A stretch of 64,000 bases of DNA, from NCBI GenBank assembly GCA_949293415.1, contig CASFDK010000003.1:1-64000 (forward strand). Direction: 5' to 3'. The notes under the pieces are model-generated. The model did not search any database. It worked only from the letters and a program-made list of their open reading frames with translations, and had not been told where the DNA came from. The position numbers were made by a program, and so were the translations under genes. Positions 10,233 to 60,990 of this stretch are shown piece by piece (within the stretch, counting starts at the first letter, position 1; the number at the start of each line of letters is the position of its first letter). This DNA comes from an uncultured Verrucomicrobiota bacterium (lineage in GTDB: Bacteria; Verrucomicrobiota; Verrucomicrobiia; Opitutales; Intestinicryptomonadaceae).

Positions 10233-10399
10233 CAAAGGCGAAGCCCTTGACGGGCGGAACTTCGGGCGCGAACCGCGCCAGTCGTCGGAACTTCGTTCCT
10301 ATCTGTGATGCCTCGCGGCAACTATAGTTGCCGCTTTTCTCTATAAGCTCGCATTGAGCGGCGTTCCGCCGTTCAATGGCTTTGTTATTTCGAACTTAT
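10233..10399 (+). repeat. interspersed multi-hairpin repeat, copy 2
   Basis: A full-length copy: CAAAGGCGAAGCCCTTGAC start, a GGAAC-TTC-GTTCC hairpin, TGTGATG linker, the perfect palindrome GCGGCAACTATAGTTGCCGC at 10315-10334, T-run, then an outer stem ending CGAACTTAT (10391-10399). The inner hairpin here is CATTGAGCGGCG-TTC-CGCCGTTCAATG, longer than in other copies but still paired. It sits directly 3' of the dUTPase gene in the same orientation. Confidence 0.88.
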
Positions 10400-10429
10400 T
10401 TTGTTGGTTTCCAAAACCTGCTTTTTTTA

Positions 10430-10566
10430 ATGAAAAATGAGTAATGAATTGTGCCGTACATTTGTAACGGCACAAGAATGAATTTCAGCGTTTAGTATAG
10501 ACGCTGAAAGAATAATGAATTTCAACATTTAATATAAGCATTGAAATTCATTCTTTTTTCATTAAG
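10430..10566. repeat. cluster of three AT-rich hairpins with tandem-repeat character
   Basis: After an AATGAAAAATGA tract come three hairpins: TTGTGCCGT...ACGGCACAA (10449-10474), TTTCAGCGT...ACGCTGAAA (about 10483-10509) and GAATTTCAA...TTGAAATTC (about 10517-10549). The last two units share the frame AATGAATTTCA...TTTA.TATA...TGAAA and look like diverged tandem copies in which stem bases changed on both sides. No reading frame is present. This fills the rest of the 387-bp gap between the dUTPase and the SGNH hydrolase genes. Confidence 0.65.
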
Positions 10567-10616
10567 AAAACAAGCATTGACACAAATCCGCCCGCGGGTT
10601 CAATGAATCGCCGCGT

Positions 10617-11273
10617 ATGAAAATCGTAAATATTCTCGTGGTGCTTTTTGCGTTTTGGGCGGTGTGCGGAAATGTTCTTGCCGACGATTCCGCCGAAAGA
10701 ATCAGGGTTGCCTGTGTCGGAGACAGCATAACTTTCGGCGACCAAGTAAAACAGCGTACGGAAAATTGCTACCCCGCCGTACTCGGACGCGCCCTCGGCG
10801 ACAAGTACGACGTGCGCAATTTCGGCGCGTGCGGCGCGTCTGCCTCGAGAAGCGCGTGGCACAATTATTGGAAGCTTAAGGAATTCAGGGCATCGCTCGA
10901 GTTCAAGCCGAATATCGTAGTCATAATGTTCGGCACCAACGACACGAACCCGAAGAATTGGCAGCGGACGCAGAATACAATAACAAAGGCGTTCAACGAA
11001 CTTATCGACACCTATTCCGCACTCGAGACAAAACCGAAAATCTATCTCTGCCTGCCCGTCGAATGCTTCGGCAGCAAATATGCCGACGAAGCGTGCCTGA
11101 AGATGGTCAGAAAGGAAATAAGGGCGGTCGCAAAGGAGCGCGGAATCGAAATCATAAACATGTACGCCGCGCTGAAGGGCAAAAAAGAGCTCTTCCCCGA
11201 CAACCTGCACCCCAATGCCGAAGGTGCAAGGATAATGGCTGAAAAAGTCTTCAAGAAAATCGCAGCCCAATGA
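10617..11273 (+). CDS. SGNH/GDSL-family hydrolase, exported
   Basis: A 218-residue esterase or carbohydrate-deacetylase-like enzyme. It has a signal peptide (residues 1-22, ending VLA-DD). The four SGNH blocks are visible: block I CVGDSITFGD with the nucleophile Ser37, block II NFGACGAS, block III FGTNDTN near residue 105, and block V DNLHPNAEG with the Asp-x-x-His pair near residue 195. The family removes acyl groups from lipids, sugars or polysaccharides; the substrate cannot be read from the sequence. The stop codon overlaps the next start (ATGA), so the two genes are translationally coupled. Confidence 0.87.
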   Translation: MKIVNILVVLFAFWAVCGNVLADDSAERIRVACVGDSITFGDQVKQRTENCYPAVLGRALGDKYDVRNFGACGASASRSAWHNYWKLKEFRASLEFKPNIVVIMFGTNDTNPKNWQRTQNTITKAFNELIDTYSALETKPKIYLCLPVECFGSKYADEACLKMVRKEIRAVAKERGIEIINMYAALKGKKELFPDNLHPNAEGARIMAEKVFKKIAAQ

Positions 11274-11653
11274 CCGCGCGTCGGATATTCCCCAAGACTC
11301 GATACGCATTGCGGGGCGCGGCAATACTCGCCTGCATATTCTTCTCGATGCCGTTTCTCGAAGGATACCCGTTTTTGTTTGCGCTGAAGTTCGGCTCGAT
11401 TGCCTCCTCCGCCGCCTTTGTCGGATTCTTCGCGCTTTTCCATTCCGTTTTCATATCGGTTTCGTCGGACAAAATAATATTCTTCCAATTTTTTTTGCCG
11501 CTCGGGATGTTCAAGAAATCGGAAATCAAATCCATGAAAATGCTTCCGTTCGCGAAATTGCAAATCGTCAAAAAAGACGGCAAAAGGCGTGTATTCGCCG
11601 TCCGGCTTTTCGATGAAAAGGCGGTCGCCGAACTAATCCGCAGGTTCGGGTAA
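11270..11653 (+). CDS. small membrane protein with PH-like cytoplasmic part
   Basis: A 127-residue protein I cannot assign to a named family. Residues 15-65 contain two hydrophobic segments (ILACIFFSMPFLEGYPFLF and IASSAAFVGFFALFHSVF). The rest is a small beta-rich region (KIIFFQFF... IQIVKKDGKRRVFAVRLFDEKAVAELIRRFG) resembling the PH-like part of DUF304-type membrane proteins. It overlaps the SGNH hydrolase stop by 4 bp (ATGA), implying coexpression and perhaps a shared envelope role. Confidence 0.65.
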   Translation: MTARRIFPKTRYALRGAAILACIFFSMPFLEGYPFLFALKFGSIASSAAFVGFFALFHSVFISVSSDKIIFFQFFLPLGMFKKSEIKSMKMLPFAKLQIVKKDGKRRVFAVRLFDEKAVAELIRRFG

Positions 11654-11676
11654 AAGTAGCACTCGGCAAACATCGA

Positions 11677-11712
11677 CAAAAAAGGCGCAGTCCGCAAGAC
11701 CGCGCCTTTTTT
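11677..11712. terminator. bidirectional intrinsic terminator
   Basis: A run of A, the stem GGCGC...GCGCC and a run of six T lie between the convergent small membrane protein gene (plus) and the sugar transporter gene (minus). Both strands therefore read hairpin plus T-run. Confidence 0.75.
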
Positions 11713-11731
11713 GTTTCGGGCAAAGCGCACC

Positions 11732-12742
11732 CTATTTCGAGGCAACCAATATCGAAAGCCCCGCCAAGAAGAACACGAACATCAACGCGAGCAGCGTGTT
11801 TGTGCCTTTCGGCGCATCCTTGAACTCGCGCCAGATGAACACGCCCCAGAACGCCGAAATCATCGTCGCGCCCTGCCCCAAGCCGTACGCGAGCGCAGCC
11901 CCCGCCGCGTTTGCCGAAATAAAGCTAAGGCTTGTGCCCAAACACCAAATCGAACCGCCGAGAATGCCCACAAAGTGGAGCTTCGCGTTGCCGTCGGTGA
12001 AATACGACGCGTACGAAACGCTCTTGCCGCCGTCCACGGGGAACTTCATCGCAAGCGTATTGAAAACAAAATTCGAAACCAGAATGCCCGCCGCGAAAAC
12101 GACCATTGCCGTATACGGCGAAAGCTTGCCGCTCTCGAGAACCGCCTTGCCCGTCGACATATCGATGTTGCCCATCGCCTCCGCAACGAAGCTGTAGAAA
12201 AAGCCCATCAGGAAGCCCGCCAATGCCGAAACGGCAATGCCCTTTACCGTCGCACCCTTGCCGCCGAGGCGTTTGAACGCGAGCGCGTCGACTACGATTG
12301 CAACGCAGATGAGCGCAACACCCAAGCCGAGCATAACGGGGTTGCCGTCCGGCTTTGCAGCGTAGGTCGTGATAACTCCGAGCACAAGAGCCAAGCCGAT
12401 TCCCACAGGGAACGCCACCGCAAGCCCCGCGATGTCGATTGCGATGACAAGCAGTATGTTCGAAAGGTTGAAAATGATACCGCCTATCAACGCCGACATA
12501 AGCCACTGCGAGTCCGCCTGCGAAAGGTCTGCGAGAAAGCTTCTGCCTCCGTCGCCGAACGAACCCATTGTAAACGCCATCAGAAGCGAAAACAGCAGAA
12601 TGCCGATTGTGTAGTCCCAGTAAAAGAGCTGGAATTTCCAAGACTTGCTCGCCAGTTTTTGAGTGTTGCCCCACGAGCCCCAGCATATCATCGTAATGAT
12701 ACACATAACAACCGCAATCGGGTAGGATGTAACAGTAATCAT
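11732..12742 (-). CDS. GRP/ureide-permease-like sugar transporter
   Basis: A 336-residue integral membrane protein with about ten transmembrane helices in the DMT superfamily. The N-terminal part (CIITMICWGSWGNTQKL, then WKFQLFYWDYTIG) matches the group formed by bacterial glucose/ribose GRP transporters and the related ureide permeases, which are proton-coupled importers. The true start is the ATG at 12742, preceded by AAGGA; the frame stays open upstream but that extension is Arg/Ser-rich and not protein-like. Substrate specificity cannot be told from the sequence. Transcribed towards the convergent SGNH pair. Confidence 0.78.
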   Translation of the reverse strand: MITVTSYPIAVVMCIITMICWGSWGNTQKLASKSWKFQLFYWDYTIGILLFSLLMAFTMGSFGDGGRSFLADLSQADSQWLMSALIGGIIFNLSNILLVIAIDIAGLAVAFPVGIGLALVLGVITTYAAKPDGNPVMLGLGVALICVAIVVDALAFKRLGGKGATVKGIAVSALAGFLMGFFYSFVAEAMGNIDMSTGKAVLESGKLSPYTAMVVFAAGILVSNFVFNTLAMKFPVDGGKSVSYASYFTDGNAKLHFVGILGGSIWCLGTSLSFISANAAGAALAYGLGQGATMISAFWGVFIWREFKDAPKGTNTLLALMFVFFLAGLSILVASK

Positions 12743-12854
12743 AATTTTTCCTTCTTTGTTGAATTGGATTTCGTAAAGGGAAGCGGGAAAAAGACATTCG
12801 CGCCGTCGAAGAAAAGTTAGTTTGTCCGCCCCGAAAAAGTCAATAGCATAACGA

Positions 12855-12889
12855 CAAAAAAACGCGGGTTGGAGAAAATCCAATCCGCG
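12855..12889 (-). terminator. intrinsic terminator of the CBM48-like gene
   Basis: Stem arms CGCGGGTTGGA (12863-12873) and TCCAATCCGCG (12879-12889), one mismatch, five-base loop. On the minus strand the hairpin is followed by a run of seven T. It lies 25 bp past the stop of the minus-strand gene at 12915. Confidence 0.85.
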
Positions 12890-12914
12890 CGAAAAATGTC
12901 GGGGAAATACCGAG

Positions 12915-13325
12915 TTAGAATGCGGGTCTGCAAATGACCGTATCGCCCGCCGCGACCGCGAGATTTTCGCCGTCCATCCACTGCGAGTCGTTGAGCAGAA
13001 CCTTGAATTCAACCGAACCTTCGGGGACGAGCTGTTCCCAAAGCCATTCGTCTTCGCTGACGCTCTGCATAGGTACACCCTTGTTCCAATCGAGACTTCC
13101 GCCGAGTCCGCGAATATAAAGCTGGTTACCCCAACCCGCGTCGAACTTTGCGATTACGCGCGTGAGTTTGCCCTTCGGCGCGCTTTTTACCGCCTTAGCT
13201 TCGACGCATTTTCTGGCTTTCGCCGCGCACTTTTTTTCCGCAGGTTTCTTTTCGGCCTTAACCGTTTTCACGGTCTTGGCGTCTTTGGCTGCTGTTTTTG
13301 TCGTTGTCTTTTTTGTTGTCGGCAT
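12915..13325 (-). CDS. Lys/Ala-rich tail fused to a CBM48-like glycogen-binding domain
   Basis: A 136-residue protein in two parts. Residues 1-55 are low-complexity Lys/Thr/Ala/Pro-rich sequence (MPTTKKTTTKTAAKD...), like eukaryotic H1 or bacterial histone-like tails. Residues 56-136 (GWGNQLYIRGLGGSLDWNKG... WLWEQLVPEGSVEFKVLL) resemble the CBM48/AMPK-beta glycogen-binding fold. The ATG at 13325 has an AAAGGA ribosome binding site 7 nt upstream; the ATG at 13340 has none. No signal peptide, so it is cytoplasmic. A link between nucleic acid (or another polyanion) and a glucan is possible but is only inference. Confidence 0.7.
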   Translation of the reverse strand: MPTTKKTTTKTAAKDAKTVKTVKAEKKPAEKKCAAKARKCVEAKAVKSAPKGKLTRVIAKFDAGWGNQLYIRGLGGSLDWNKGVPMQSVSEDEWLWEQLVPEGSVEFKVLLNDSQWMDGENLAVAAGDTVICRPAF

Positions 13326-13491
13326 TGTGTATCCTTTCATCAAACGAACATAACTTCTTATGTAGATTCTCGTTCAATTCCCGTAAATTTTCTAGCATAG
13401 CATTGTTAAGACAAGCATTTTTTCTCAAAAAAAACACCTATACTTGTTTTCATTTATTTTATCGGAACAAACGCGTACGCCGTAAACAAAA

Positions 13492-13518
13492 AAGACCGAC
13501 TTTTTCCAAGTCGGTCTT
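13492..13518 (-). terminator. intrinsic terminator of the ppiD-like gene
   Basis: AAGACCGACTT and AAGTCGGTCTT form an 11-bp stem around TTTCC. The minus strand reads T-rich sequence after it (complement of the A-run at 13486-13491). It lies 22 bp past the stop codon of the peptidyl-prolyl isomerase gene. Confidence 0.82.
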
Positions 13519-13539
13519 CCGCAATAGGACTCCCGTCGA

Positions 13540-15168
13540 TTATTTTTCTTCGGCGGCAATACGCTTTTCGCCCGCGCGCATTTTTTCGGAGATTACCGAC
13601 ATCGAACTTACCGCGCCGAACGCGCGTTCCATATCCTTGCCGATTGTCTCCATTTTCGCCGCCGCGTCCTTGTCGGTCGGGGGGGTGAACTTTACAAGCT
13701 CGATGATGTACGACTTTTCGCCGAACGTTTTCGCCGACGAAACCCCGCCGACTTTCAGCGACGGAAGCGTCGAGGAAATTACCGAATACGCCTGCAACAC
13801 TGCGTCGCCCTGCGGATTGAGGAACGAGAAGTTCTTCACGCTTTCGACAGCCGCGCCGCCCGCGCGCGCAACCGACGCGAACGACTTCTTTTCGGCGACC
13901 GCCTTTGCCAGAGCCTTGTCGAGAGTGTTTGCGCGTTCGGCAAACAGACGCGCCTTTTCCGAATCGGTGTAGTTCCGCAAAACCTTTTCCTTTACGTCTG
14001 CGAACTTCGGCAGATACGACGGAAGTTTTTCGACGAAGAAAACCACATACACGCCGTCGTCGGTCGTAACGGGGTCGGAATAGAAACGCGATTCGTCGAG
14101 CTTCATCGCCGCTCCCGCAGCTTCGACGGGGAAGCCCTCGGGCAGGGAAACGTCGGTTACGCGGATGGGCGCGTTCTTTTTGAACACAACCTTGAAGTCC
14201 TGCGCAATTTTCTTGAGTTCGGCGGACGCCTTTTTAGCTTCCGCGTCGTAGATTTTAAGGACGAACTCTTCCGCCACCTGCGCCGCCTTGCGCAATGCGC
14301 CCGCCTTTGCGGCGTCCGCCTTCACCTTGCCCTTTACGTCGGCAAGCTTGGGCATTTGCTGTTTGCCGTCTTTGTCGGCGGTTGCGTACTTGCCCGTATT
14401 TGCGGCAAAGTACGCCGAAATTTCCTGTTCGGTGGGCTCTACCAAAAAATTCTTCGCGGGGAAGAAAACGGTTTCGACAACAACACCATCGCCTATTCTG
14501 TAAGCTTCGGCGTTGTCCTTAAAATATTTTTCGAGGACTTCGGGAGTCGGCTTGATGTCGAGCTTGAGCGAATCCGCCGAAAGCACAGCCATATTGAAAT
14601 CCCACGTACCGAATCTCTGGGCGTACTGGCGTTCGACTTCGAACTTGGGCATATAACCGGGACCGCCGAGAAGGTTTGCAACCTTGTTGACAAGCGCGTT
14701 TTGCGAAAGGATTTCGGAAAGCACTTCCTCGTTGATGCGGCGCGACTTCACAAAGTTCGCGAAAAGCTCGTGGCTGAACTTGCCGTCCTTGTCGGCGAAG
14801 AGAGGCGAGCTGCTGATGTAGCGGTCAAGCTCGTCCTGCGAAACGGTCGTCATACCGAGTTCGTTTGCGAGGCTGCGCAGGTACGCCTGTCTGAGAACCA
14901 GCTGCGTGAACTGCGCCTCCGACTGCGGCTGTTGTCCCGCGAAAATAAGTTCGAAGTATACGCAATTTTGCAACTGCGCCACGACCGCGTCGTTGGAGAG
15001 GTCGAAGCCGTAGAAGACCTTTCCCTTGCGCGATTCCGTGCGGTGACTGTCTCCGAAGAACGGAACTGAACCGATTGTGAAAACGAAAGCGATAATGATG
15101 GCAACGAGCAAAACGCCGAAGACCGATTTATGGTGCTTTTGAAGAACTGTTTGAATCCAAGTAATCAT
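13540..15168 (-). CDS. PpiD/SurA-like periplasmic folding factor
   Basis: A 542-residue inner-membrane-anchored chaperone that would help envelope proteins fold. One transmembrane helix (residues 15-37, VFGVLLVAIIIAFVFTIG) near the N-terminus leaves the rest in the periplasm. Residues 80-215 form the SurA-type chaperone region (LRQAYLRSLANELGMTTVSQDELDRYI...). The expected parvulin segment is poorly conserved: the central part (FKKNAPIRVTDVSLPEGFP... DDGVYVVFFVEKLPSYLPKF) resembles it, but active-site residues are not obvious. The last residues are rich in charged helices. It is the last gene of the degT-kdsB-kdsD-methyltransferase cluster, 66 bp after the methyltransferase. Confidence 0.8.
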   Translation of the reverse strand: MITWIQTVLQKHHKSVFGVLLVAIIIAFVFTIGSVPFFGDSHRTESRKGKVFYGFDLSNDAVVAQLQNCVYFELIFAGQQPQSEAQFTQLVLRQAYLRSLANELGMTTVSQDELDRYISSSPLFADKDGKFSHELFANFVKSRRINEEVLSEILSQNALVNKVANLLGGPGYMPKFEVERQYAQRFGTWDFNMAVLSADSLKLDIKPTPEVLEKYFKDNAEAYRIGDGVVVETVFFPAKNFLVEPTEQEISAYFAANTGKYATADKDGKQQMPKLADVKGKVKADAAKAGALRKAAQVAEEFVLKIYDAEAKKASAELKKIAQDFKVVFKKNAPIRVTDVSLPEGFPVEAAGAAMKLDESRFYSDPVTTDDGVYVVFFVEKLPSYLPKFADVKEKVLRNYTDSEKARLFAERANTLDKALAKAVAEKKSFASVARAGGAAVESVKNFSFLNPQGDAVLQAYSVISSTLPSLKVGGVSSAKTFGEKSYIIELVKFTPPTDKDAAAKMETIGKDMERAFGAVSSMSVISEKMRAGEKRIAAEEK

Positions 15169-15234
15169 ACTGTAAAAATTAAAGGACTTTATATTAGCGG
15201 AAGAAATTGCGATGTCAACATTTCAAACCCGCCG

Positions 15235-15810
15235 TTACGGGATTTTTTCGAAAACGTCCACCCGAGCGGGCGGGATGTTGAGGGCGACGAAAGACCTCCC
15301 GATGTGCCGCATTTTTTCGAACCCGAGCGACTCGGGCGGGCGGCGCAGGTTGTACGTAAACTGTACGAATCTGCCGCCCGTAGGCAGCGATTCCTCCACC
15401 TCCGAAACGATGTTGGCGACAACCTCCTTCGGCAGGCTGACGAGCGGAAGTCCCGAGATTATCGTCGAGATTTTTCCCGAATCCGCGCCGACGAGCTTGC
15501 GGATATTTTCGGCACTGCCGTTGATAATTTTCGCCGTCGGAAATTTTTTTTCGAGAATTTCGCAGAGTTTTCCGTCGAATTCTATGCAATAAAGCGAAGA
15601 GGCGTCGGCATATCCGCCTTCGACGATATATTTTGTTATCGCCCCCGTGCCCGCGCCGAGCTCGACGACCGCGCCGCAGTCTTTCGGGCTTTTGCCGATT
15701 GACGCAACCATCCGCCGCGCAAGAAAGCGCGAGCTCGGACAAATCGTACCCGTGCGGCGCGGAGAGACAATGTATTTGCAGATTATAACTGCCGTATCCA
15801 AAACGCCCAT
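15235..15810 (-). CDS. SAM-dependent methyltransferase, phospholipid N-methyltransferase (PmtA)-like
   Basis: A 191-residue class I methyltransferase. The SAM-binding motif VVELGAGTGA is at residues 48-57, after the PmtA/rRNA-dimethylase-like lead GTICPSSRFLARRMV. The closest group is the bacterial phosphatidylethanolamine N-methyltransferases, which make phosphatidylcholine, but KsgA-like RNA dimethylases look alike at this level. The ATG at 15810 lies 5 bp after the kdsD stop, so the genes are coupled. An envelope role fits the neighbours but is inference. Confidence 0.7.
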   Translation of the reverse strand: MGVLDTAVIICKYIVSPRRTGTICPSSRFLARRMVASIGKSPKDCGAVVELGAGTGAITKYIVEGGYADASSLYCIEFDGKLCEILEKKFPTAKIINGSAENIRKLVGADSGKISTIISGLPLVSLPKEVVANIVSEVEESLPTGGRFVQFTYNLRRPPESLGFEKMRHIGRSFVALNIPPARVDVFEKIP

Positions 15811-15815
15811 ACGAA

Positions 15816-16790: not shown

Positions 16791-16792
16791 AT

Positions 16793-17854: not shown

Positions 17855-17941
17855 AATTTTGTCCTTTTGTCGGGAGAGCTGCGAAACGCGTCCGACGCGG
17901 TTGCAAAGCCGGCGGCGCGGAACGCGCGCCGTCCAGCCCCT

Positions 17942-19237: not shown

Positions 19238-19639
19238 ATGAAAGAAACAACGGAAAAGAAGGTTGCGGAATCGAAGGCTCCCGCAAAGAAAAAGGCAACA
19301 AAAACGGCGGCAAAAGCCCCCGCGAAAAAATCTGCGACTCCGAAAAAGACGGCAGCGCAAAAGAAGCCATGCGCCGAAAAGAAAACGGCAAAAGGCTGCT
19401 GCGGCAAGGACGGATGCGCCTGCAAAAAGAAGGCGGCGGAAGCGGTCTGCCCGGAATCGCTCGTTTCCGAAATATTTTCGCAGCTCGAAGACACCGAAGT
19501 GCTCTCCGCTCTTCTTGGCGACTTTTTCTTCTGCGAACTCGTCAAACGCGGCTTAGACGAACAAACCGCCAACGATTTGGCAAACAAGCTCAATATCGAA
19601 GTCGAAGCGTTCGAGGCGAATATCGAACTCGGCAAATGA
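19238..19639 (+). CDS. Lys/Ala/Pro-rich tail protein with a Cys cluster
   Basis: A 133-residue protein of unknown function. Residues 1-55 are Lys/Ala/Pro-rich (KAPAKKKATKTAAKAPAKK), like a histone H1 tail. A short Cys-rich stretch follows (CCGKDGCACKKK), then an acidic, probably helical C-terminus (ESLVSEIFSQLEDTEVLSAL... LNIEVEAFEANIELGK). I chose the ATG at 19238 (MKETTEKK). The tail is similar in composition to that of the CBM48-like protein at 12915 although the C-terminal parts are unrelated. A hairpin repeat follows the stop codon within about 10 bp. Possible roles: nucleoid or RNA binding, or metal handling; neither is shown. Confidence 0.65.
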   Translation: MKETTEKKVAESKAPAKKKATKTAAKAPAKKSATPKKTAAQKKPCAEKKTAKGCCGKDGCACKKKAAEAVCPESLVSEIFSQLEDTEVLSALLGDFFFCELVKRGLDEQTANDLANKLNIEVEAFEANIELGK

Positions 19640-19647
19640 GTTATATT

Positions 19648-19732
19648 TGTGATGCTTCGCGGCAACTATAGTTGCCGCTTTTTGTTTATAAGTTCGCATT
19701 GCTTCGCAATAGCTTGCTTCTTCCGAACTTAT
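19648..19732 (+). repeat. interspersed multi-hairpin repeat, copy 3
   Basis: TGTGATGCTTCG linker, then the perfect palindrome GCGGCAACTATAGTTGCCGC (19659-19678), T-run, ATAAGTTCG and CGAACTTAT outer stem. The inner hairpin is GCATTGC-TTC-GCAATAGC, different from the usual one yet paired. The front hairpin is missing. It sits directly 3' of the Lys-rich gene and in its orientation. Confidence 0.85.
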
Positions 19733-19793
19733 ACAGAGTATTTTTTCGAAACGGGAGAAACGCCGCTCTATCCCTCGTTTTTTGTAATGAAAA

Positions 19794-19821
19794 ATGAAAA
19801 AGGCGCGGCTTTTGCCGCGCC
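19794..19821 (-). terminator. intrinsic terminator of the TPR gene
   Basis: GGCGCGGC and GCCGCGCC pair around TTTT (19802-19821). The minus strand reads TTTTTC after it. It lies 26 bp past the TPR gene's stop codon. Confidence 0.8.
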
Positions 19822-19847
19822 TAAATTTCCTAATCTGGAACGGATTT

Positions 19848-26105: not shown

Positions 26106-26231
26106 CAAAGGCGAAGCCCTTGACGCCCGAACTGCGTTCGGGAGTTGTGATACTGCGCGGCAACTATAGCTGCCGCTTTTGTGTATAAGTTCGCATTGGC
26201 TTTGCCAATGGCTTCGAATTCTCGAACTTAT
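26106..26231 (+). repeat. interspersed multi-hairpin repeat, copy 4
   Basis: CAAAGGCGAAGCCCTTGACG start, CCCGAAC-TGC-GTTCGGG hairpin, TTGTGATACTG linker, palindrome GCGGCAACTATAGCTGCCGC (26157-26176, one mismatch), T-run, ATAAGTTCG...CGAACTTAT with inner hairpin CATTGGC-TTT-GCCAATG. It lies upstream of lptD and points away from it. It forms a tandem pair with copy 5, about 150 bp later. Confidence 0.87.
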
Positions 26232-26256
26232 CTTATTTTTTCCGAAACAAAATCGA

Positions 26257-26403
26257 CAAAGCCGAAGCCCTTGACGGCAGACTGCTACCTGAACGGCGTC
26301 GGAAATTCGTTCCTTTCTGTGATGCTTCGGCGCGGCTATAGCCGCGCCTTTTGTGTATAAGTTCGCATTAGCTTTGCCAATGGCTTCGAATTCTCGAACT
26401 TAT
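26257..26403 (+). repeat. interspersed multi-hairpin repeat, copy 5 (different central stem)
   Basis: Same layout and flanks as the other copies, but the central palindrome is GGCGCGGCTATAGCCGCGCC (26329-26348) instead of GCGGCAACTATAGTTGCCGC. Nearly all stem bases changed and both arms changed together, so pairing is kept. The front hairpin is GGAA-ATTC-GTTCC-like and the inner hairpin CATTAGC-TTT-GCCAATG has one mismatch. CGAACTTAT ends it at 26403. A CATTTTTCATTAC tract and a G-run follow. Confidence 0.87.
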
Positions 26404-26492
26404 CTTATTTTTCCCGAAACAGTAGATTCATTTTTCATTACAAAAAAAACGGGGAAGACAGCGGTGTTTCCCTCGTTTCGAAAAATACTCGC

Positions 26493-26594
26493 ATAAGTTC
26501 GTATGAACAAAGCGATTGAGCGGCGGAAAACCCGCCGCTCAATGCGTTCTTATAAACAAAAAGCGGCAACTATAGTTGCCGCGAAGTATCACAG
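26493..26594 (-). repeat. interspersed multi-hairpin repeat, copy 6
   Basis: Minus orientation: TGTGATACTTCG, palindrome GCGGCAACTATAGTTGCCGC (26563-26582), T-run, then an outer stem (ATAAGAACG-like side and CGAACTTAT) around a long inner hairpin ATTGAGCGGCGG...CCGCCGCTCAAT. It directly follows the ferredoxin gene's stop in the gene's orientation, and converges with copies 4 and 5. Confidence 0.86.
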
Positions 26595-26604
26595 ATATAA
26601 AAAA

Positions 26605-26835
26605 CTATTCGCCGTCGTCGCCGATTGCTTGGACGGGGCACGATTCCATTGCCTCCGTGCAAAGAGCCGTGTCGGCATCGCTTGCGGGCTGCTTTGCGAC
26701 ATACGCGCAACCCGTGTCGCTCATTTCGAAAAAGCCTTCCGCCGTGGAATTGCAGAGGGCACAACCGATGCACTGCGAGTCAACATAGAATTTGCCCGCA
26801 ACGTTAAATTCATTTTTTTCTGATTTTTCTGCCAT
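26605..26835 (-). CDS. small single-cluster ferredoxin
   Basis: A 76-residue electron carrier of the bacterial [4Fe-4S] (or [3Fe-4S]) type. Cluster ligands are Cys22, Cys25, Cys28 (CIGCALC) and Cys66 followed by Pro (SCPVQAI), in the order expected for a monocluster ferredoxin. Two more Cys (43 and 59) may form a disulphide. An acidic N-terminus and C-terminus (DDGE) are typical. The ATG at 26835 is the start that gives a ferredoxin-like length; the frame is open for hundreds of bases upstream but that part is not protein-like. No redox partner is adjacent. Confidence 0.85.
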   Translation of the reverse strand: MAEKSEKNEFNVAGKFYVDSQCIGCALCNSTAEGFFEMSDTGCAYVAKQPASDADTALCTEAMESCPVQAIGDDGE

Positions 26836-50372: not shown

Positions 50373-50373
50373 T

Positions 50374-52131: not shown

Positions 52132-52133
52132 CG

Positions 52134-52787
52134 ATGGAAATTCCGCAGTCTTTCATTTATCTTTCGCCGTTACCGTATGTTCCGAAATACAAAAACCCCG
52201 ATTCGTGCGAATTGCAGATTGGGCCGTTCAATCCCGCGGAATGTGTCGAGTTTTTCTGGCGGACGCGGGTTGCGAGTGTGTCGGCGCATTTGCAGCTTTA
52301 TGTGCGGGACGTAGAGCGTAATTTGGTCATTTGGGACGAAAACGGTTCGGCTTTGCTCTCCTCCGAAAATGCCGCAGCAAACTCCGCGTTCGCCCTGCCG
52401 CCGTACGCGCGCTGCACCGCATCGCGCCCGCTTTCCGTAACGGACGGCGGCGCGTTTTTCGAAGTAGGCGGCCCGTGGACGGCGGTTGAGTATCCTGCTG
52501 GCACAAAATTCGAAAATATGGGTTTCTACTACGATATATCATTGCGTTTTGCGGTCGGCGCGATTGAGCTATCGAGCAAATATATCGAACTTGATTCCAC
52601 GAACTATTACACCCACCAGCAATTCCCGTTCGAAATTTTCGGCAAAGAGTATGCGCTGAATCTAAACGTTCCGTATGAATACGCACACCCCACCGACTAC
52701 GGTTTGGACGCAAATTTCTCCGCAGACATTTCGATAAACTTCGGGCGCGAGCCGCGCCGGTCGGCGGAACTTCGTTCCTTCTTGTGA
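52134..52787 (+). CDS. last phage-island protein, C-terminus supplied by a repeat
   Basis: A 217-residue protein, beta-rich, unknown family (SELQ... QIGPFNPAECVEFFWRTR, GGPWTAVEYPAGTKFENMGF, YTHQQFPFEIFGKEYAL). About the last 17 residues (FGREPRRSAELRSFL) and the TGA stop are encoded by the start of hairpin-repeat copy 7 (from 52737), so the native C-terminus was probably lost. A fibre- or hub-associated tail protein is possible. Starts 2 bp after the hub-like gene. Confidence 0.62.
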   Translation: MEIPQSFIYLSPLPYVPKYKNPDSCELQIGPFNPAECVEFFWRTRVASVSAHLQLYVRDVERNLVIWDENGSALLSSENAAANSAFALPPYARCTASRPLSVTDGGAFFEVGGPWTAVEYPAGTKFENMGFYYDISLRFAVGAIELSSKYIELDSTNYYTHQQFPFEIFGKEYALNLNVPYEYAHPTDYGLDANFSADISINFGREPRRSAELRSFL

Positions 52788-52869
52788 TGCTACGCGGCAA
52801 CTATAGTTGCCGCCTTTGTGTATAAGTTCGCATTGGCTTTGCCAATGGCTTCGGGGTGTTCGAACTTAC
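52737..52869 (+). repeat. interspersed multi-hairpin repeat, copy 7
   Basis: AACTTCGGGCGCG...GGAAC-TTC-GTTCC front part, CTTGTGATG linker, the perfect palindrome GCGGCAACTATAGTTGCCGC (52794-52813), then ATAAGTTCG...CGAACTTAC with inner hairpin CATTGGC-TTT-GCCAATG. Its front part matches copy 2 at 10257-10300 closely and is translated as the end of the phage protein. Confidence 0.88.
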
Positions 52870-52899
52870 CTTGAAAATTTCCGAAACCGAATTAAAAAA

Positions 52900-53217: not shown

Positions 53218-54054
53218 CTACCTCGGTATTCTCAATACTTGACCGGGCTTTAGCGATTCGGGCGTCGCCATCCTGTCGCGGTTAGCGTTGAATATTTCGC
53301 GCCAGCGGTTTTTTGTGCCGTACACTTTGCGGCTTACGTTGGAAAGGGTGTCGCCGGGTTGCACCGTATACGTTGCGGGCGTGTCGCGCTTTACCTCTAT
53401 CGGCGCGTTTTGGCGTTGGCGCGCATCGCGCGTTGACGACGGCGTTTGCGCTGTTTGTGCCGTATGCCTGCCCTGTGTCTGCCGCGTCGGCGTTGCGGCA
53501 ATGCTCACGCGCTGTGTCGCCTTCAATGAATCTATGGCGTTTGCCGCGGCGTCGAGACGTTGTTTAAGTTCTATGTTCTCCTTTTGCACTTTCTGCAAAA
53601 GCTCCTCGAGCTCCATTCGGCGCACGTTGTTTTCAAACGGGCTTTCGGGAAGAGACGCGGCGAATTTCTTTTGCGCCGTGTCTATCATCTGCCGAACCAT
53701 CGGCGATACGGGCGAGTTGGGTTTGAGCTCGAGATATTTTCTGAAATGGTAAATCGCCTGAATGGGATCGTTCATATTGTCGAGATATATCCGACCCAAT
53801 TCGAAGTGCGATTCGGGCGCGTCCTTGCGTTTTTCGACGACTTTCAGGAACGCGCTCATAGCCTCGGGAACGTTTCCGCGTTTGAGCTCGTCGCGCCCCC
53901 TCAGAAAATGCGTTTCGTTCGTCTCCTTTACGACTTCATTTTTGCCGAAATCGCACCCGCCCGCCGCGAGAATGTACAGCGAGGCAAACGACGCCGCAAC
54001 GAGTGCGAGCACCGTTTTGCCTTTGTATGTGAGAATGTCGAACGGAAACGCCAT
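53218..54054 (-). CDS. TPR and LysM envelope protein
   Basis: A 278-residue protein with an N-terminal hydrophobic signal or anchor ([20 protein letters not shown], then Cys, probably a lipoprotein). TPR-like repeats follow (residues about 45-120: [40 protein letters not shown]), then a coiled coil, an Ala/Thr/Gln-rich linker and a C-terminal LysM peptidoglycan-binding domain ([18 protein letters not shown], ending [11 protein letters not shown]). Probably binds the cell wall as part of envelope maintenance or division. Starts 7 bp after purH. Confidence 0.82.
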
Positions 54055-54061
54055 ATCTGTA

Positions 54062-55594: not shown

Positions 55595-55715
55595 AGACGA
55601 AAAATCAACTCCATATTCGCCTTTCTTACAAGTATATTTTCGCGCGCGGACGTTTTTTTTAAACTTTGCAATTTTTTAATTGCGAAAATTCGATGTTCTG
55701 GAAAAATAACCGCCG

Positions 55716-56696
55716 TTGAATAATATTGATGACAGTACGAACCCGTTCGGGGATTTGGCGAAAGATCTGAAACCACAACTTGCCGATTTCAAGAGATTTC
55801 TCGTCAAACAGGCGTCCACTTTCGAAAAGGAGGTGCGCGCGGCGGCTAAAGAGGCTATCTCGCCGAAAGGCAAGTATATAAGACCCATTCTCGTCTTCCT
55901 CTCCGCCCCGCAAAATGCCGATACGGCTTCGCTCGTAAGGCGCGCGACCATCGCAGAGCTTGTCCACCTTTCAACGCTCATCCACGACGACGTTATCGAC
56001 AAGGCGGATATGCGCCGCAAAACGCCCACGCCGTTCAAAAAGTACGGCGCGAAAACGGCGATTCTTTTGGGCGACGCGATTTTCTCGCATATGATGTCGC
56101 TTGCATTCGCCGAAAACAGTATGGATGTCCTCAAAAAAACCGCAGACTGCGTAAAGACCATTTGCGAGGGCGAAATAAAGCAGACGCTTTCCGACAAGTC
56201 GGAAATTGTCTCGCGCAAAAAGTATTACGACGTAGCCTACGGCAAGACTGCCGCCCTATTCGAGCTTGCGTGCAACTTCGGCGCGACGGCTTCGAAACAA
56301 TCCGACGCGAAATGGGCGAAAGCCGCCGGTGAGGCGGGCAGGCAGCTCGGTATTGCCTACCAAATTTACGACGACGTCTGCGACTGGTTTATGTCGGAGG
56401 AGGATGCGGGCAAAACGCTCGGCACGGATCTCATTTCGGGCAAGCAGACGTATCCGTTAATCGTGCTTCTCGAAAAGCTCCCGCGCGGGAAGTCGGCGAA
56501 GCTCGCGAAGAACCTGCCATCTTCGGATCCAGCCGAGATACTCGAAATGATAAGGCGTTTCGGCGTTGCCCGCGAATGCCGCGCAGAGTTCGACAGGCGG
56601 ATGAAGTTGGCGGAATCGGCGGTTGCAAAGTTCGGCGGCGGGAATGCGGGGCTTCTGAAATTCTGCGCGCAAATGCGCAAGCTCAAATTCGGCTAA
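55716..56696 (+). CDS. ispB: polyprenyl diphosphate synthase (octaprenyl-type)
   Basis: Elongates isoprenoid chains for quinone side chains or undecaprenyl/hopanoid precursors. The 326-residue protein has both Asp-rich motifs: LIHDDVIDKADMRRK (first) and YQIYDDVCDWF (second), with KYIRPILVFL near the N-terminus. The start is TTG at 55716. Chain length cannot be fixed from the sequence. Followed 24 bp later by hemA, with which it likely shares a transcript. Confidence 0.9.
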   Translation: MNNIDDSTNPFGDLAKDLKPQLADFKRFLVKQASTFEKEVRAAAKEAISPKGKYIRPILVFLSAPQNADTASLVRRATIAELVHLSTLIHDDVIDKADMRRKTPTPFKKYGAKTAILLGDAIFSHMMSLAFAENSMDVLKKTADCVKTICEGEIKQTLSDKSEIVSRKKYYDVAYGKTAALFELACNFGATASKQSDAKWAKAAGEAGRQLGIAYQIYDDVCDWFMSEEDAGKTLGTDLISGKQTYPLIVLLEKLPRGKSAKLAKNLPSSDPAEILEMIRRFGVARECRAEFDRRMKLAESAVAKFGGGNAGLLKFCAQMRKLKFG

Positions 56697-56720
56697 GTCG
56701 GCGGGCACTTTTTTATTGCG

Positions 56721-57782
56721 ATGGATTCGGAGGAAAAACGCAACTTCCTTTATGTCGTAGGCATTTCGCACGTGTGTGCGGATGCCGAAACCGTCGGCGC
56801 GTGCGGCGTTCCGAAGGAGTCGGCAGACCTCGCCGAAGAAATGCTGATGGATTTGTGCGGGTTTTCCGAAACGCTCGTGCTCTCAACCTGCAACAGGGTC
56901 GAAATCTATTTCGTATCCGATTCCGAAAATGCGGTAGAGCGGGCGATTGGGGCTTTCGGCAAGGTGCCGTCGCGCGGTCGCGACATCGAGAAGTTCGCAT
57001 CTCTTGCGTATGTCAAAAAAAATGTAGGGGCAATAGAACACATTTTCGAAGTGGCTTCGGGGCTTCAGTCGCAAATGACGGGCGAGACCGAAATTCTCGG
57101 GCAGGTCAAGGCGGCGTATGCGCGGGCGGCGGCGGCGGGGCACTGCAAGTCGGTGCTCAACACGGTATTTCAAAAGGCAAACCAGTGTGCGAAGTGGATT
57201 CGCACGAACACGAATGTCGGACACGGAAAGATAAGTTTGGGCTCGGTTTCCGCCGAGCTTGCCGACAGGATTTTCGGCGATGTTGCGCGGGCGAGGATTC
57301 TCCTCTTGGGTTCGGGCGAGGCGGGCAGGCTTGTTGCCGATGCGCTGTTTGTCCGCGGGGCGAAGGACATTTCCGTTGCGAGCAGAACCCGCGCGAATGC
57401 CGACAGGCTCGCCGCGCAGATCGGTGTCGAATCCGCCGATTTAGAGCAGTCGCTTGCGAATTTGCCAGTGTTTGACATTGTCATTGCCGCGAGTTTTTCC
57501 CCCGTTCCGTTGATTGGCTTGAAGCGCGCAAAAGCCGCCGCTGCCGCAAGGGGCGGCAGACCGATATTTTTGATAGATCTTGCCGTGCCCCGAAACATCG
57601 ACAAAGCCTGCGGCGAAATAAACGACGTGTATTTGTACAATCTCGAAGACCTCTCGCGCATCGCCAACGAAAATATTGCCCTGCGCAAAAACGAAATAGA
57701 GACCGCCAAAAAAGAAATAGAAAAAAAAGCCCAAAACGTATTAACAAAACTAGCGACTACGGAACTTCGTTCCTCTCTGTGA
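56721..57782 (+). CDS. hemA: glutamyl-tRNA reductase, C-terminus ends in a repeat
   Basis: Reduces glutamyl-tRNA to glutamate-1-semialdehyde, the first step of tetrapyrrole synthesis by the C5 route. The catalytic Cys57 lies in the signature LSTCNRVEIYF; the NADP-binding site is LLGSGEAGRLVADAL. The product is 353 residues, against about 420 in E. coli, and lacks most of the C-terminal helical dimerisation domain. The last residues (TELRSSL) and stop come from hairpin-repeat copy 8. Either the repeat truncated the gene or this lineage uses a short HemA. Confidence 0.9.
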   Translation: MDSEEKRNFLYVVGISHVCADAETVGACGVPKESADLAEEMLMDLCGFSETLVLSTCNRVEIYFVSDSENAVERAIGAFGKVPSRGRDIEKFASLAYVKKNVGAIEHIFEVASGLQSQMTGETEILGQVKAAYARAAAAGHCKSVLNTVFQKANQCAKWIRTNTNVGHGKISLGSVSAELADRIFGDVARARILLLGSGEAGRLVADALFVRGAKDISVASRTRANADRLAAQIGVESADLEQSLANLPVFDIVIAASFSPVPLIGLKRAKAAAAARGGRPIFLIDLAVPRNIDKACGEINDVYLYNLEDLSRIANENIALRKNEIETAKKEIEKKAQNVLTKLATTELRSSL

Positions 57783-57863
57783 TTCTGCGCGGCAACTATA
57801 GTTGCCGCTTTTCTCTATAAGTCCGCATTGGCTTTGCCAATCGCTTCGGTTGTTCGAACTTAT
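57761..57863 (+). repeat. interspersed multi-hairpin repeat, copy 8
   Basis: Front hairpin GGAAC-TTC-GTTCC, CTGTGATTCT linker, perfect palindrome GCGGCAACTATAGTTGCCGC (57789-57808), T-run, ATAAGTCCG...CGAACTTAT with inner hairpin CATTGGC-TTT-GCCAAT. The first part is translated as the end of HemA. AATGAAAAAAGAATGAA tracts follow, filling the gap before the transhydrogenase genes. Confidence 0.87.
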
Positions 57864-57999
57864 TTTGTTGTTTTTCGAAACGTTTGATTCGGTTAATGAA
57901 AAAAGAATGAATTTTTCATTATTCATTCGGTACGCAAAGATGTCGGGTTTGTAAAATTTTCTTGTTTTTGCGTTTTTGCGGTGTTTCAATCGAATACGA

Positions 58000-59115
58000 A
58001 TGAAAACCTTATTTGTTTGTTCGGAGCGCGATCCCCGCGAAACGAGGGTTGCGGTAATTCCTTCGGATGTCGGCAAATTGTCGGCTATCGGTTGGTCTGT
58101 CAATGTCGAGTCGGGTGCGGGCGCAAAAGCCGGTTTCTCCGACGAAGACTATAAGCTCGCGGGGGCGGCGATTGTCGATGCCGATTTCGCAAAAAATGCC
58201 GACTTTATCGTCGCGGTTCGCAAGCCGCAGGTCGAGCGCGTTGCCGACTTCAAGCGCGGCGCGTTCTATTTGAGTCTGCTCGACCCGTTCAACGAGAAGG
58301 GTCTCATTGCAACGTTCGCCGCACAGGGCGTTACGGCGGCGAGTTTCGAGATGATTCCCCGCAGTACGATTGCCCAGAAAATGGACGTGCTAAGTTCGCA
58401 GTCGAGTTTGGCAGGGTATGTCGCGGTTATCAAGGCGGCAAACACGCTCAAGAGAATTCTGCCGATGATGATGACTCCTGCGGGCACGATTTCGCCTCTG
58501 AAGTTCTTCATTGTCGGTGTAGGCGTTGCGGGGCTTCAGGCTATCGCGACGGCAAAGCGTCTGGGCGCAAGGGTTGAGGCTTTCGACACGCGTCCCGTGG
58601 TCGAAGAGCAGGTGAAGTCGCTCGGGGCAAAGTTCGTGAAAATCGACCTCGGCGAAACGGGGCAGACGGCGCAGGGCTATGCGAAGGAGCTTACGCCCGA
58701 GCAAATCGAGCTTCAGCGCAGGGGAATGGCGAAGGTCTGCGCGCAGTCGGACGTTATCATCACGACGGCGAAGCTCTTCGGCAGAAAAGCCCCGCGCATC
58801 ATCACCGCCGAGATGGTTATGGGGATGAAGGCGGGCAGTGTGATTATCGATATGGCGGTAGAAAGCGGCGGAAATGTCGAGGGTTCGAAGCCCGACGAAA
58901 TCGTAATCACCCCCAACGGCGTTACGATTATCGGCGACACCTGCCTTGAGGCGTCCGTTCCCGCGACGGCAAGCCAGATGTACAGCTCGAACGTATACAA
59001 CTACATTGCGCACTTCTCGCCGAACGGAACGTTCGAGCCGAATTTCGAAGACCCTATTATGAAGGTTTCGGCGGTAACGCACGACGGACAAATCACCGAC
59101 GAACGCTTCAAATAA
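58000..59115 (+). CDS. pntAA: NAD(P) transhydrogenase subunit alpha, NAD-binding part
   Basis: The soluble dI domain of the proton-translocating transhydrogenase, which makes NADPH from NADH at the expense of the proton motive force. The 371-residue protein has the family's VKSGAG-like start (GWSVNVESGAGAKAGFSDEDY), the conserved ALDH/PNT segments (YLSLLDPFNEKGLI, MIPRSTIAQKMDVLSSQSS), the NAD-binding VGVGVAGLQAIATAKRLGA and the end AVTHDGQI. The ATG at 58000 gives the standard N-terminus. Confidence 0.95.
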   Translation: MKTLFVCSERDPRETRVAVIPSDVGKLSAIGWSVNVESGAGAKAGFSDEDYKLAGAAIVDADFAKNADFIVAVRKPQVERVADFKRGAFYLSLLDPFNEKGLIATFAAQGVTAASFEMIPRSTIAQKMDVLSSQSSLAGYVAVIKAANTLKRILPMMMTPAGTISPLKFFIVGVGVAGLQAIATAKRLGARVEAFDTRPVVEEQVKSLGAKFVKIDLGETGQTAQGYAKELTPEQIELQRRGMAKVCAQSDVIITTAKLFGRKAPRIITAEMVMGMKAGSVIIDMAVESGGNVEGSKPDEIVITPNGVTIIGDTCLEASVPATASQMYSSNVYNYIAHFSPNGTFEPNFEDPIMKVSAVTHDGQITDERFK

Positions 59116-59137
59116 AATTTTCGGCAAAGGTTAGATT

Positions 59138-59425
59138 ATGGAAATTATTTTACTGTTGTTCATCTTCACGCTCGCGGCGTTTCTGGGCTTCGAGCTTATC
59201 TCGAAAGTGCCGAGCCAGTTGCACACGCCGCTTATGAGCGGTTCGAATGCAATCAGCGGCATTACCATTGTCGGCGCGATGATTTCCACTGCGGGCACTG
59301 AGGGCAGTATGACGGCTACGGTTATCGGGCTGTGTGCGCTCGTGCTTGCGGCAATCAACGTTGTCGGCGGCTATATGGTTACCGACAGAATGCTCGCGAT
59401 GTTCAAAAAGAAGGGAGACAAATAA
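59138..59425 (+). CDS. pntAB: NAD(P) transhydrogenase small membrane subunit
   Basis: The 95-residue transmembrane domain II, part 1, encoded separately from the alpha soluble part as in many bacteria. Three hydrophobic helices (IILLLFIFTLAAFLGFELI, TIVGAMISTAG and VIGLCALVLAAINVVGGYMV) and the typical end TDRMLAMFKKK are visible. Needed for proton transfer across the inner membrane. Lies between pntAA and pntB, 3 bp before the latter. Confidence 0.93.
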   Translation: MEIILLLFIFTLAAFLGFELISKVPSQLHTPLMSGSNAISGITIVGAMISTAGTEGSMTATVIGLCALVLAAINVVGGYMVTDRMLAMFKKKGDK

Positions 59426-59428
59426 TTT

Positions 59429-60841
59429 ATGAATCCTGCGTTGGTCAATTTTGTATACATTATTGCGTCGATTCTCTTCATCTTGGGAATCAAGATGCTC
59501 GGCAAGGCCGAAACGGCGCGAAAGGGCAACCTAATCTCGGCGGTCGGCATGTTGATTGCCGTCGTGATTACGCTCTTCGACAAAAAAATTCTCGACTGCA
59601 ACGATCCCGTTTCGTGGGGGCTTCTCGCGGGCGGTTTGTTTGCGGGCACGCTTATCGGCGCGGTTATGGCGAAAAAGGTCAAGATGACTTCCATGCCCGA
59701 AATGGTCGCCCTGCTCAACGGTTTCGGCGGTCTGGCGAGTTTGCTCGTTGCGGCGGCGGAATATTATTTCGATATGGTCAAAGCCGAACCCGCTATGCCC
59801 GATACCTTCTCGAAATTCGCGATTATCGCGACGATTCTCATCGGCGGTATCACGTTCACGGGCTCGCTCTATGCGTGGGGCAAGCTGTCGGGTAAAATCT
59901 CGGGCAAGGCGAAAGTCTTCGCGGGGCAGAAGGCGGTCAATGCGCTCGTGGCGTTGCTGTCGATTGCGGCGGCGGTCGTGTTCGTTTGGGCGGACTGCTT
60001 CGGACTCGGTTTCGACATGATGGTTTTGGCAACCGTGCTTTCTCTGCTATTGGGGATTGCGGCGGTTATGCCCATCGGCGGCGGCGATATGCCCGTTGTC
60101 ATTTCCCTGCTAAATTCGCTCTCGGGCTTGGCGGCTTCGGCTGCGGGCTTTGTAATCAGCAACAATGTGTTGATTGTCGCGGGCTGTTTGGTGGGCGCAA
60201 GCGGTATCATTCTGACCGTTATTATGTGCAAGTCGATGAACAGAACGCTCTCGAATGTGTTGTTCTCGGGCTTCGGAGCGTCGGCTTCAAAGTCGCAGAA
60301 AGTCGACGGCGAGATGAAGCCCATTTCCGTGGACGATGCGTATTTCGTTCTCGAAGCGGCCCAGAATGTGGTGTTCATCCCCGGTTACGGTATGGCTGTG
60401 GCGCAGGCCCAGCACGCGGTAAAGGAGCTTGCCGAGATTCTCGAAAACAACGGCGCGGAAGTTTCGTTTGCGATTCACCCCGTCGCGGGCAGAATGCCGG
60501 GGCATATGAATGTGTTGCTTGCCGAAGCCGATGTTCCCTATGAGCAGCTCAAGGAAATGGACGAAGCCAACAGGATTCTCGAGACTGCCGACGTTGCCAT
60601 TGTCATCGGCGCGAACGACGTTGTAAATCCCGCCGCAGCCGAAGACAAGGGCAGCCCCATTTACGGCATGCCCATTATCGAAGCCTACAAGGCAAAGACT
60701 GTTTTTGCGCTTAAGCGCGGTAAGGGTGCGGGATTCTCGGGTTTGGAAAACAGTCTGTTCTTCCGTCCCAACACCCGTATGATTTACGGCGACGCAAAGG
60801 CAACCGTAAACGAACTGGTGGCAAAATTCAAAGACAAGTAG
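59429..60841 (+). CDS. pntB: NAD(P) transhydrogenase subunit beta
   Basis: The beta subunit: nine or so transmembrane helices followed by the NADP-binding dIII domain. The 470-residue protein shows the membrane part (VAVVITLF..., GGGDMPVVISLLNSLSGLAA) and the dIII motifs VVFIPGYGMAVAQAQHAVK and IHPVAGRMPGHMNVLLAEADV, and the end KAKTVFALKRG. Completes the three-gene operon. Hairpin-repeat copy 9 follows 36 bp later. Confidence 0.95.
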   Translation: MNPALVNFVYIIASILFILGIKMLGKAETARKGNLISAVGMLIAVVITLFDKKILDCNDPVSWGLLAGGLFAGTLIGAVMAKKVKMTSMPEMVALLNGFGGLASLLVAAAEYYFDMVKAEPAMPDTFSKFAIIATILIGGITFTGSLYAWGKLSGKISGKAKVFAGQKAVNALVALLSIAAAVVFVWADCFGLGFDMMVLATVLSLLLGIAAVMPIGGGDMPVVISLLNSLSGLAASAAGFVISNNVLIVAGCLVGASGIILTVIMCKSMNRTLSNVLFSGFGASASKSQKVDGEMKPISVDDAYFVLEAAQNVVFIPGYGMAVAQAQHAVKELAEILENNGAEVSFAIHPVAGRMPGHMNVLLAEADVPYEQLKEMDEANRILETADVAIVIGANDVVNPAAAEDKGSPIYGMPIIEAYKAKTVFALKRGKGAGFSGLENSLFFRPNTRMIYGDAKATVNELVAKFKDK

Positions 60842-60876
60842 CAAGGACTGGCAGGCTGCAGCCTGTACGGCTACGG

Positions 60877-60990
60877 CAAAGGCGAAGCCCTTGACGCCCG
60901 AACTTCGTTCGGGAGTTGTGATACTTCGGCGGCAACTATAGTTGCCGCCTTTTCTGTGTAAGAACGCATTGAGCGGCGGAGTTTCTGCGA
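60877..60990 (+). repeat. interspersed multi-hairpin repeat, copy 9, cut by an IS remnant
   Basis: CAAAGGCGAAGCCCTTGACG, CCCGAAC-TTC-GTTCGGG hairpin, TTGTGATACTTCG linker and the perfect palindrome GCGGCAACTATAGTTGCCGC (60929-60948). The usual second half breaks off at 60990 inside the inner-hairpin region (GCATTGAGCGGCGG...), exactly where the left end of the IS remnant begins. Confidence 0.86.

Follow-up and report, generated by a model that had tools for sequence, protein, structure and literature searches.

What does a repeat built of several hairpins do behind the genes of a single bacterium, and how could it have spread there? The question is raised by the first 64,000 nucleotides of contig CASFDK010000003.1 of an uncultured Verrucomicrobiota bacterium (C3:1-64000 in our coordinates), a stretch that is called the window throughout and that belongs to a draft genome (G000) of 2.32 Mb in 52 contigs, 94.8% complete. 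The PntB of this genome has uncultured Opitutales MAGs as its nearest named relatives, so that its host is likely a member of the Opitutales. An earlier note, made from the letters of the window, had described nine places with a shared multi-hairpin layout and had guessed at a transcribed structured element, such as a terminator, or a non-autonomous mobile element. The reading that we favour, with a probability of about 0.6, is a mobile-like mosaic repeat family docked at stop codons, whose central palindrome (H2) and following T-run likely serve as a portable terminator.

A repeat family behind stop codons

The 20-bp palindrome of the layout occurs eight times in the window with at most 3 mismatches, compared to 0.01 occurrences expected from dinucleotide shuffles, which bears out the claim that it is abundant above chance. 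Two repeat models were built, R1 on 28 copies of the window's genome and R2 on 24 copies from five genomes, and matches in genomes were accepted at E ≤ 0.01. Searches by blastn with the core, by R1 and by R2 all reveal a genome-wide repeat family, with 81 (R1, counted from the match list) and 88 (R2) matches in G000, many of them outside the window. The 75 best R1 copies form 57 clusters, 42 of which are single. We can conclude that a repeat family of about 80 mosaic hairpin copies is dispersed through one genome. Within the window, R2 recovers eight copies with E values from 5e-23 to 1.7e-8, so that eight of the nine proposed places stand, including that at 26493, a real copy that lies on the minus strand. 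The ninth, at 4390, is not a copy; it was rejected on the basis of its R1 score (19.5 bits, E 0.33, minus strand), its absence from the R2 matches at E ≤ 0.1 and, by eye, its lack of linkers and H3. An extra weak R2 match at 19774-19832 on the minus strand (E 3.4e-4) falls where the terminator scan lists a plain terminator-like hairpin. The layout pattern has no match in viral contigs.

From 5′ to 3′, the element consists of the optional hairpin modules A (CAAAGGCGAAGCCCTTGACG), B (GCAGGCTGCAGCCTGCACGGCTACGG) and C (GGGCGCGAGCCGCGCC), a hairpin D (GGAACTTCGTTCC or CCCGAACTTCGTTCGGG), the TGTGA linker (TGTGATRCTTCG), the palindrome H2, centred mostly on CTATAG, its T-run, a further linker, a hairpin H3 enclosed by CGCATTG...CAATNGCTT, and a tail that reaches about CGAAAC. 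The arms of H2 come in several variants (GCGGCAA, GGCGCGA, GGCGCGG, GGAAGCAA, GGAGGCAA and others). In a second subfamily, often found in arrays, a T-rich leader (TTTTTTATATCTGTG) takes the place of the modules. Three loci (L137, L138 and L139) have a distinct 3′ side (CCCCGACAAGCTCGTATTGCCTGCGGCAATAACTATC...) that extends into a longer common sequence and represent a third subfamily. At L163 (G000:C44:178572-178742), a leader-type copy is followed directly after TTTATAAG by a module-type copy with a leader-type-like tail behind it, and this locus is a nested or recombined pair of copies.

The position of the copies relative to genes, which were predicted with a simple hexamer caller, is the central observation. 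The earlier note had most copies lying 3′ of a gene and in its orientation, and this holds for six of the eight in the window (those with cores at 26146 and 26318 are antisense) and, over the whole genome, for 38 of the 56 clusters whose 5′ neighbour is known. Classified by nearest neighbours, the 57 clusters comprise 22 convergent, 10 tandem sense, 9 tandem antisense, 3 divergent and 13 contig-end cases. Beyond what the earlier note had described, the element docks at the stop codon itself. A 5′ module or leader was recognised in 27 of 31 sense copies located 0-110 nt past a same-strand gene end, and its start, located by module strings picked after the copies had been viewed, is no more than 4 nt from the stop in 21 of these 27 (0 nt in 16) and 8-30 nt away in the other six. 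When the two doubly occupied ends are counted once, docking within 4 nt is found at 20 of 25 ends and docking at 0 nt at 15 of 25; this count omits the copies that a gene reads into (52783 and 57778 in the window, and C20:85). Of all 226 gene ends examined, 21 have one of the module strings at most 4 nt from the stop, and therefore nearly all such cases are element copies. Among other gene ends in the stretches examined, 52 of 116 have a terminator-like stem, at a median distance of 24.5 nt, and only 2 of these 52 stems lie within 4 nt.

Two window copies (52737 and 57761) are arranged differently: the gene there reads into the repeat and finds its stop in the TGA of the TGTGA linker. Two other ways of producing such an edge were considered and dropped. 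That insertion had truncated the genes was discarded for the three upstream genes compared, FabF, PntB and pyrophosphatase, because these proteins are full length and their C-termini are level with those of relatives (model matches run to position 407 of 407 in FabF and 458 of 460 in PntB). A TAA/TAG target-site model for docking was abandoned because of stop usage beside the copies (TAG 22, TAA 10 and TGA 6, n = 38, compared to a background of 90, 93 and 42, n = 225, copies included) and because antisense or distant copies are, by eye, mostly without a TAR before them.

Terminator-like folding and conserved pairing

H2 and its T-run have the form of an intrinsic terminator, a G+C-rich stem followed by a tract of T. 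Among 24 strong sense copies there is nothing terminator-like ahead of the core other than, in a single case, a neighbouring copy's H2. H2 itself is terminator-like in 23 of them, so that the first terminator-like site is a family H2 at 23 of 24. The folding energy of H2 has a median of −16.3 kcal/mol, and the T tract behind it has a median of 6 T in 8 bases, with 3 T or fewer in 4 of 47 copies. It can be predicted from the order of sites, the folding energy and the T tract that H2 and the T-run likely act as the intrinsic transcription terminator of the upstream gene. The terminator half of the earlier guess thus agrees with a terminator-like element at gene 3′ ends, and the element palindromes rank near the top in a simple terminator scan.

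Neither outcome that the earlier note had set as refuting, copies at chance level outside the window or a lack of conserved pairing, came about. Pairing in H2 and H3 is kept by two-sided changes. Such changes occupy 56 cells of the 28-copy alignment, compared to 18.7 for shuffles (0/500) and no more than 7 for slid controls; in the five-genome alignment (A2), which retains three second-subfamily rows with a misaligned H3, they occupy 41 cells, compared to 10.7 for shuffles (0/500) and no more than 13 for slid controls. H2 is mostly fully paired, with 660 of 680 paired positions being Watson-Crick in hairpins picked by a best-hairpin finder, which was also used for the wobble tallies below. The outer enclosing stem that had been proposed (ATAAGTTCG/CGAACTTAT) has almost no such support: 93% of its cells pair, yet its eight pairs show one two-sided change in total in the 28-copy alignment, 8 of 28 copies break one and the same pair, and by eye the stem is missing from the relatives' copies examined. 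Averaged over the 24 aligned copies from five genomes, column identity reaches 0.94 for the H3 stem, 0.76 for the H2 stem and 0.66 for the T-run and linker; by eye, the T-run stands behind H2 in the majority of the copies aligned from all five genomes.

A structure maintained through two-sided changes, with hairpins directly behind stop codons and close behind relatives' tRNA genes, could also point to a conserved cis-acting RNA element, that is, an mRNA 3′-end stabiliser or a protein-binding RNA whose post-stop hairpin blocks 3′ exonucleases. Against this, the wobbles in G000 (H2, 5 top-strand and 10 bottom-strand; H3, 13 and 11) and in the relatives' H2 (3 top-strand and 1 bottom-strand) show, in small numbers, no bias to the transcribed strand. 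Antisense copies are common, the family is patchy within one genus, and the window contains no Rfam match at gathering thresholds, so that we regard this explanation as improbable. The symmetry of the wobbles, again in small numbers, leans toward upkeep of the palindromes at the DNA level. H3 could more easily be a DNA recognition end than a part of the RNA because it is the best conserved hairpin across genera and lies beyond the predicted stop of transcription.

Relatives and routes of spread

Tallies over relatives include the window's own genome. With stricter filters, R1 finds carriers in 5 of 54 genomes. The layout pattern occurs in 5 of the 19 genomes of the family and in 5 of 372 from the order, every one of them belonging to a single family, and the reversed pattern has zero matches throughout. 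R2 finds matches in 13 of the 19 family genomes, which are strong in only five (G000 88, G004 26, G006 4, G017 4 and G018 44); the other fourteen have 0 to 6, the best with an E value of 6.8e-7 (G015), and the 1-6 weak matches in eight of them are read as remnants or chance. One single-contig genome, G010, gave zero matches in every search and zero first-look candidates for fabF and for other proteins and families, and may be masked; the absence of the element from it means little because it answered no search at all. Carrier genomes tend toward a palindrome style of their own. No copy was found at 35 orthologous gene ends (14 fabF, 11 pyrophosphatase, and 10 pntB taken from 80 pntB loci), and a terminator-like site lies within 150 nt behind 12 of 14, 4 of 11 and 6 of 10 of these orthologues, respectively. 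The mobile-element half of the earlier guess is in agreement with this patchy distribution, the species-specific palindromes and the element-free orthologous gene ends. Since palindrome style tends to be common to the copies within a genome and the same genes of relatives are element-free, the family would multiply as non-autonomous DNA inside each genome. Copies landing in coding DNA would be purged by selection.

Docking was also seen in a relative with different module sequences, G004, for which 25 of 26 matches were viewed. A sense copy follows within 160 nt at seven distinct gene ends there; by eye, the first full hairpin starts within 3 nt of the gene end in six of them (one being tRNA-Leu, at −2) and at 8 nt, behind a partial module, in the seventh. 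In relatives, four tRNA genes precede a copy, with the first hairpin at −2, 0, 3 and 9 nt by eye.

Three kinds of enzyme that might move the element were searched for. The earlier note had suggested looking for a transposase of the type associated with repetitive extragenic palindromic (REP) sequences (RAYT), and this branch found no support: a Y1 transposase (PF01797) was found in 0 of 19 family genomes, among them the unresponsive G010, and in 5 of 14 control genomes. Reverse transcriptase (PF00078) was found in 1 of 19 (G018) and not in G000, and spread by reverse transcription was therefore rejected. The third is the integron integrase, whose attC recombination sites lie right behind stop codons, fold from one strand and carry the core sites RYYYAAC/GTTRRRY. 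Placement behind stops, structure maintained over sequence and direct arrays all recall attC, but the integrase (TIGR02249) was found in 0 of 19 genomes above the curated cut-off; weaker matches, present in 18 of 19 genomes and likewise in all 14 of 14 control genomes, fit ordinary tyrosine recombinases. Paired core sites occur in 0 of 47 copies and in 1 of 47 shuffles, and the copies are scattered rather than forming a cassette array. An integron-like site is refuted in its simple form and is very improbable as an explanation.

By eye, the element's edges are CAAAGG, (G)CAGG or the T-rich leader on one side and about CGAAAC on the other; they are not inverted repeats of each other and lack GTAG, which is present inside the linker of the reverse complement of module B. 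The intergenic DNA of relatives is, by eye, too divergent for a check of target-site duplications. The reverse complement of module A begins with CGTC and has, by eye, a stem of 6-7 bp, a loop of 3 nt and no CCA tail. According to the literature on such repeats (PMC3733652), CGTC-tagged REPs carry an unpaired CGTC at one end, stems of 8-9 bp, loops of 4-5 nt and a CCA tail and have no dedicated transposase, GTAG ends often give TAG stops, and Opitutus terrae is rich in GTAG repeats. The present family resembles the CGTC/GTAG REPs and bacterial interspersed mosaic elements (BIMEs) of that account in its mosaic palindromes and its position downstream of genes, whereas the stem, loop and tail of module A depart from the CGTC definition, the composite with H2, T-run and H3 is larger, and the 19 genomes yielded no Y1 transposase. 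In Streptococcus pneumoniae (PMC3049150), SPRITE is likewise an interspersed, terminator-like stem with a U-rich tract, and BOX is likewise a modular composite repeat. SPRITE has an 18-bp duplex, in contrast to several modules, an H2 of 7-9 bp, H3 and stop-codon docking here; the modules of BOX differ, and 36 genes have their stop codon, at the very 3′ end, encoded by BOX, whereas most docked copies here start behind the stop and do not supply it. Uptake sequence pairs of the Neisseria meningitidis and Pasteurella multocida families are also repeats that may double as terminators (PMC2267715), but they are short paired oligonucleotides and not a composite with changing arms. As far as these descriptions go, none of SPRITE, BOX, the GTAG/CGTC REPs and the uptake-sequence terminators matches in layout. 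A search of the open literature, covering one open library, returned no description naming the hairpin repeat family.

Window copies and what the family may mean

The eight window copies and the plain terminator-like site at 4389 are listed in Table 1. The hemA-like gene before copy 7 was matched only by GlutR_N and Shikimate_DH domains and has its last codons and stop inside the repeat; the copy may have altered the C-terminus of the encoded protein. In the region 60970-61130, unrelated sequence (GTGCCCCAAATTAGGACAGG...) lies between the break of copy 8 inside H3 and an aspartate decarboxylase gene, and the break is possibly the edge of another insertion.

Table 1. Positions in the window of the repeat copies, their parts and one terminator-like site (core starts are those of the R2 matches)
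Feature	Position	Strand	Gene context	Modules and hairpin D	Core	H2	Remarks
Copy 1	10230..10417	+	docked behind dUTPase-like gene 9858-10229, junction TAG/CAG/CAAAGG	A 10233-10252, C 10264-10279, D 10287-10299	10304-10399	10315-10334	tail to about 10417
Copy 2	19640..19752	+	behind gene 19238-19639	no upstream module recognised	19648-19732	19659-19678	
Copy 3	26106..26248	+	antisense to both adjoining genes	A 26106-26125, D′ 26126-26142	26146-26231	26157-26176	one mismatch in H2
Copy 4	26257..26420	+	antisense	A 26257-26276, D 26301-26313	26318-26403	26329-26348	tandem with copy 3; other arm type GGCGCGG/CCGCGCC
Copy 5	26475..26604	-	docked behind ferredoxin-like gene 26605-26835(-), junction TAG/TTTTTTATATC		26493-26593	26563-26582	
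Copy 6	52737..52887	+	ORF 52134-52787 enters copy, stops at TGA of TGTGA linker	C 52743-52758, D 52766-52778	52783-52869	52794-52813	
Copy 7	57753..57881	+	hemA-like ORF 56721-57782 stops at TGA of TGTGA linker	partial B (start approximate), D 57761-57773	57778-57863	57789-57808	
Copy 8	60842..60985 (end approximate)	+	behind pntB 59429-60841	B 60851-60876, A 60877-60896, D′ 60897-60913	from 60917	60929-60948	broken off inside H3
Plain terminator-like site, not a copy	4389..4444	-	behind gene 4463-5443(-)	D′-like hairpin 4425-4441		palindrome 4391-4410	

However, several results weigh against a docked, terminator-bearing mobile family. The docking count depends on module strings chosen after viewing; of the 31 sense copies, four are without a recognised module and six start 8-30 nt off, and with a generic stem definition only 7 of 31 element ends stay inside the 4-nt limit, compared to 0 of 121 others, a lower count that is due in part to the mismatch held by module A. 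The stop of RNA polymerase at H2 is a prediction, the totals of the simple terminator scan are close to those of shuffles (34 compared to 31.3 and 23 compared to 20.4), and the stem mismatches show no bias to the transcribed strand. Replacement of a terminator is clear only at fabF because native terminators are not universal in the orthologues. Of the 25 copies viewed in G004, 15 lack a same-strand gene end in the nearest 160 nt, and four of the seven docked ends, which all finish in agaaaatag, could be paralogous. G018 shows weak docking. Of its 44 matches 36 were viewed, and 11 of these lie within 160 nt past a same-strand end: by eye, two are directly behind a coding stop, one is a partial module after a tRNA, four have the stop inside module-like sequence and four start further away. 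Two of these four distant copies follow a sequence that resembles an ordinary terminator, an arrangement compatible with a later loss of redundant terminators but also with plain insertion. Tandem settings hold nearly as many antisense as sense clusters, and the searches for RAYT, reverse transcriptase and integron integrase gave no mobilising enzyme in the window's genome. Also in G018, the genes called at L306, L314, L324 and L308 end at a TGA inside module-like sequence (e.g. ...CCTTGACC), and the module would supply their last codons and stop.

The weak docking in G018 and the near parity of tandem clusters (9 antisense, 10 sense) would be expected of purely selfish REP/BIME-like DNA, for which 3′ placement is tolerated insertion and the terminator-like fold a by-product, as would the patchiness among family and order genomes, the tandem arrays and the close parallels among published repeats. 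Tolerance alone, however, would not predict exact docking at the stop codon, nor a family H2 as the first terminator-like site at nearly all strong sense copies, nor a T-run retained across five genomes, and we therefore find a purely selfish origin rather doubtful. For the edge of the family at the stop codon, the likeliest reason would be that, as soon as transcripts end in the element, the spacer and the terminator made redundant by it disappear. A stronger version of the favoured reading, which we put forward only tentatively and consider rather unlikely, is a transposable terminator: a hairpin-built mobile element carrying an intrinsic terminator and moved by a putative hairpin-recognising enzyme, which would displace host terminators gene by gene and land exactly at the mature 3′ ends of coding and tRNA genes.

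Repeats near the ends of bacterial genes are already common. This case is marked by a near single-base start at the stop for most docked ends, by a family palindrome as the first terminator-like structure, and by palindromes that stay paired yet change. The multiplication of such a repeat without RAYT becomes a testable question, and, if the favoured reading is true, host regulatory parts would be supplied or replaced, in nature, by a spreading element.

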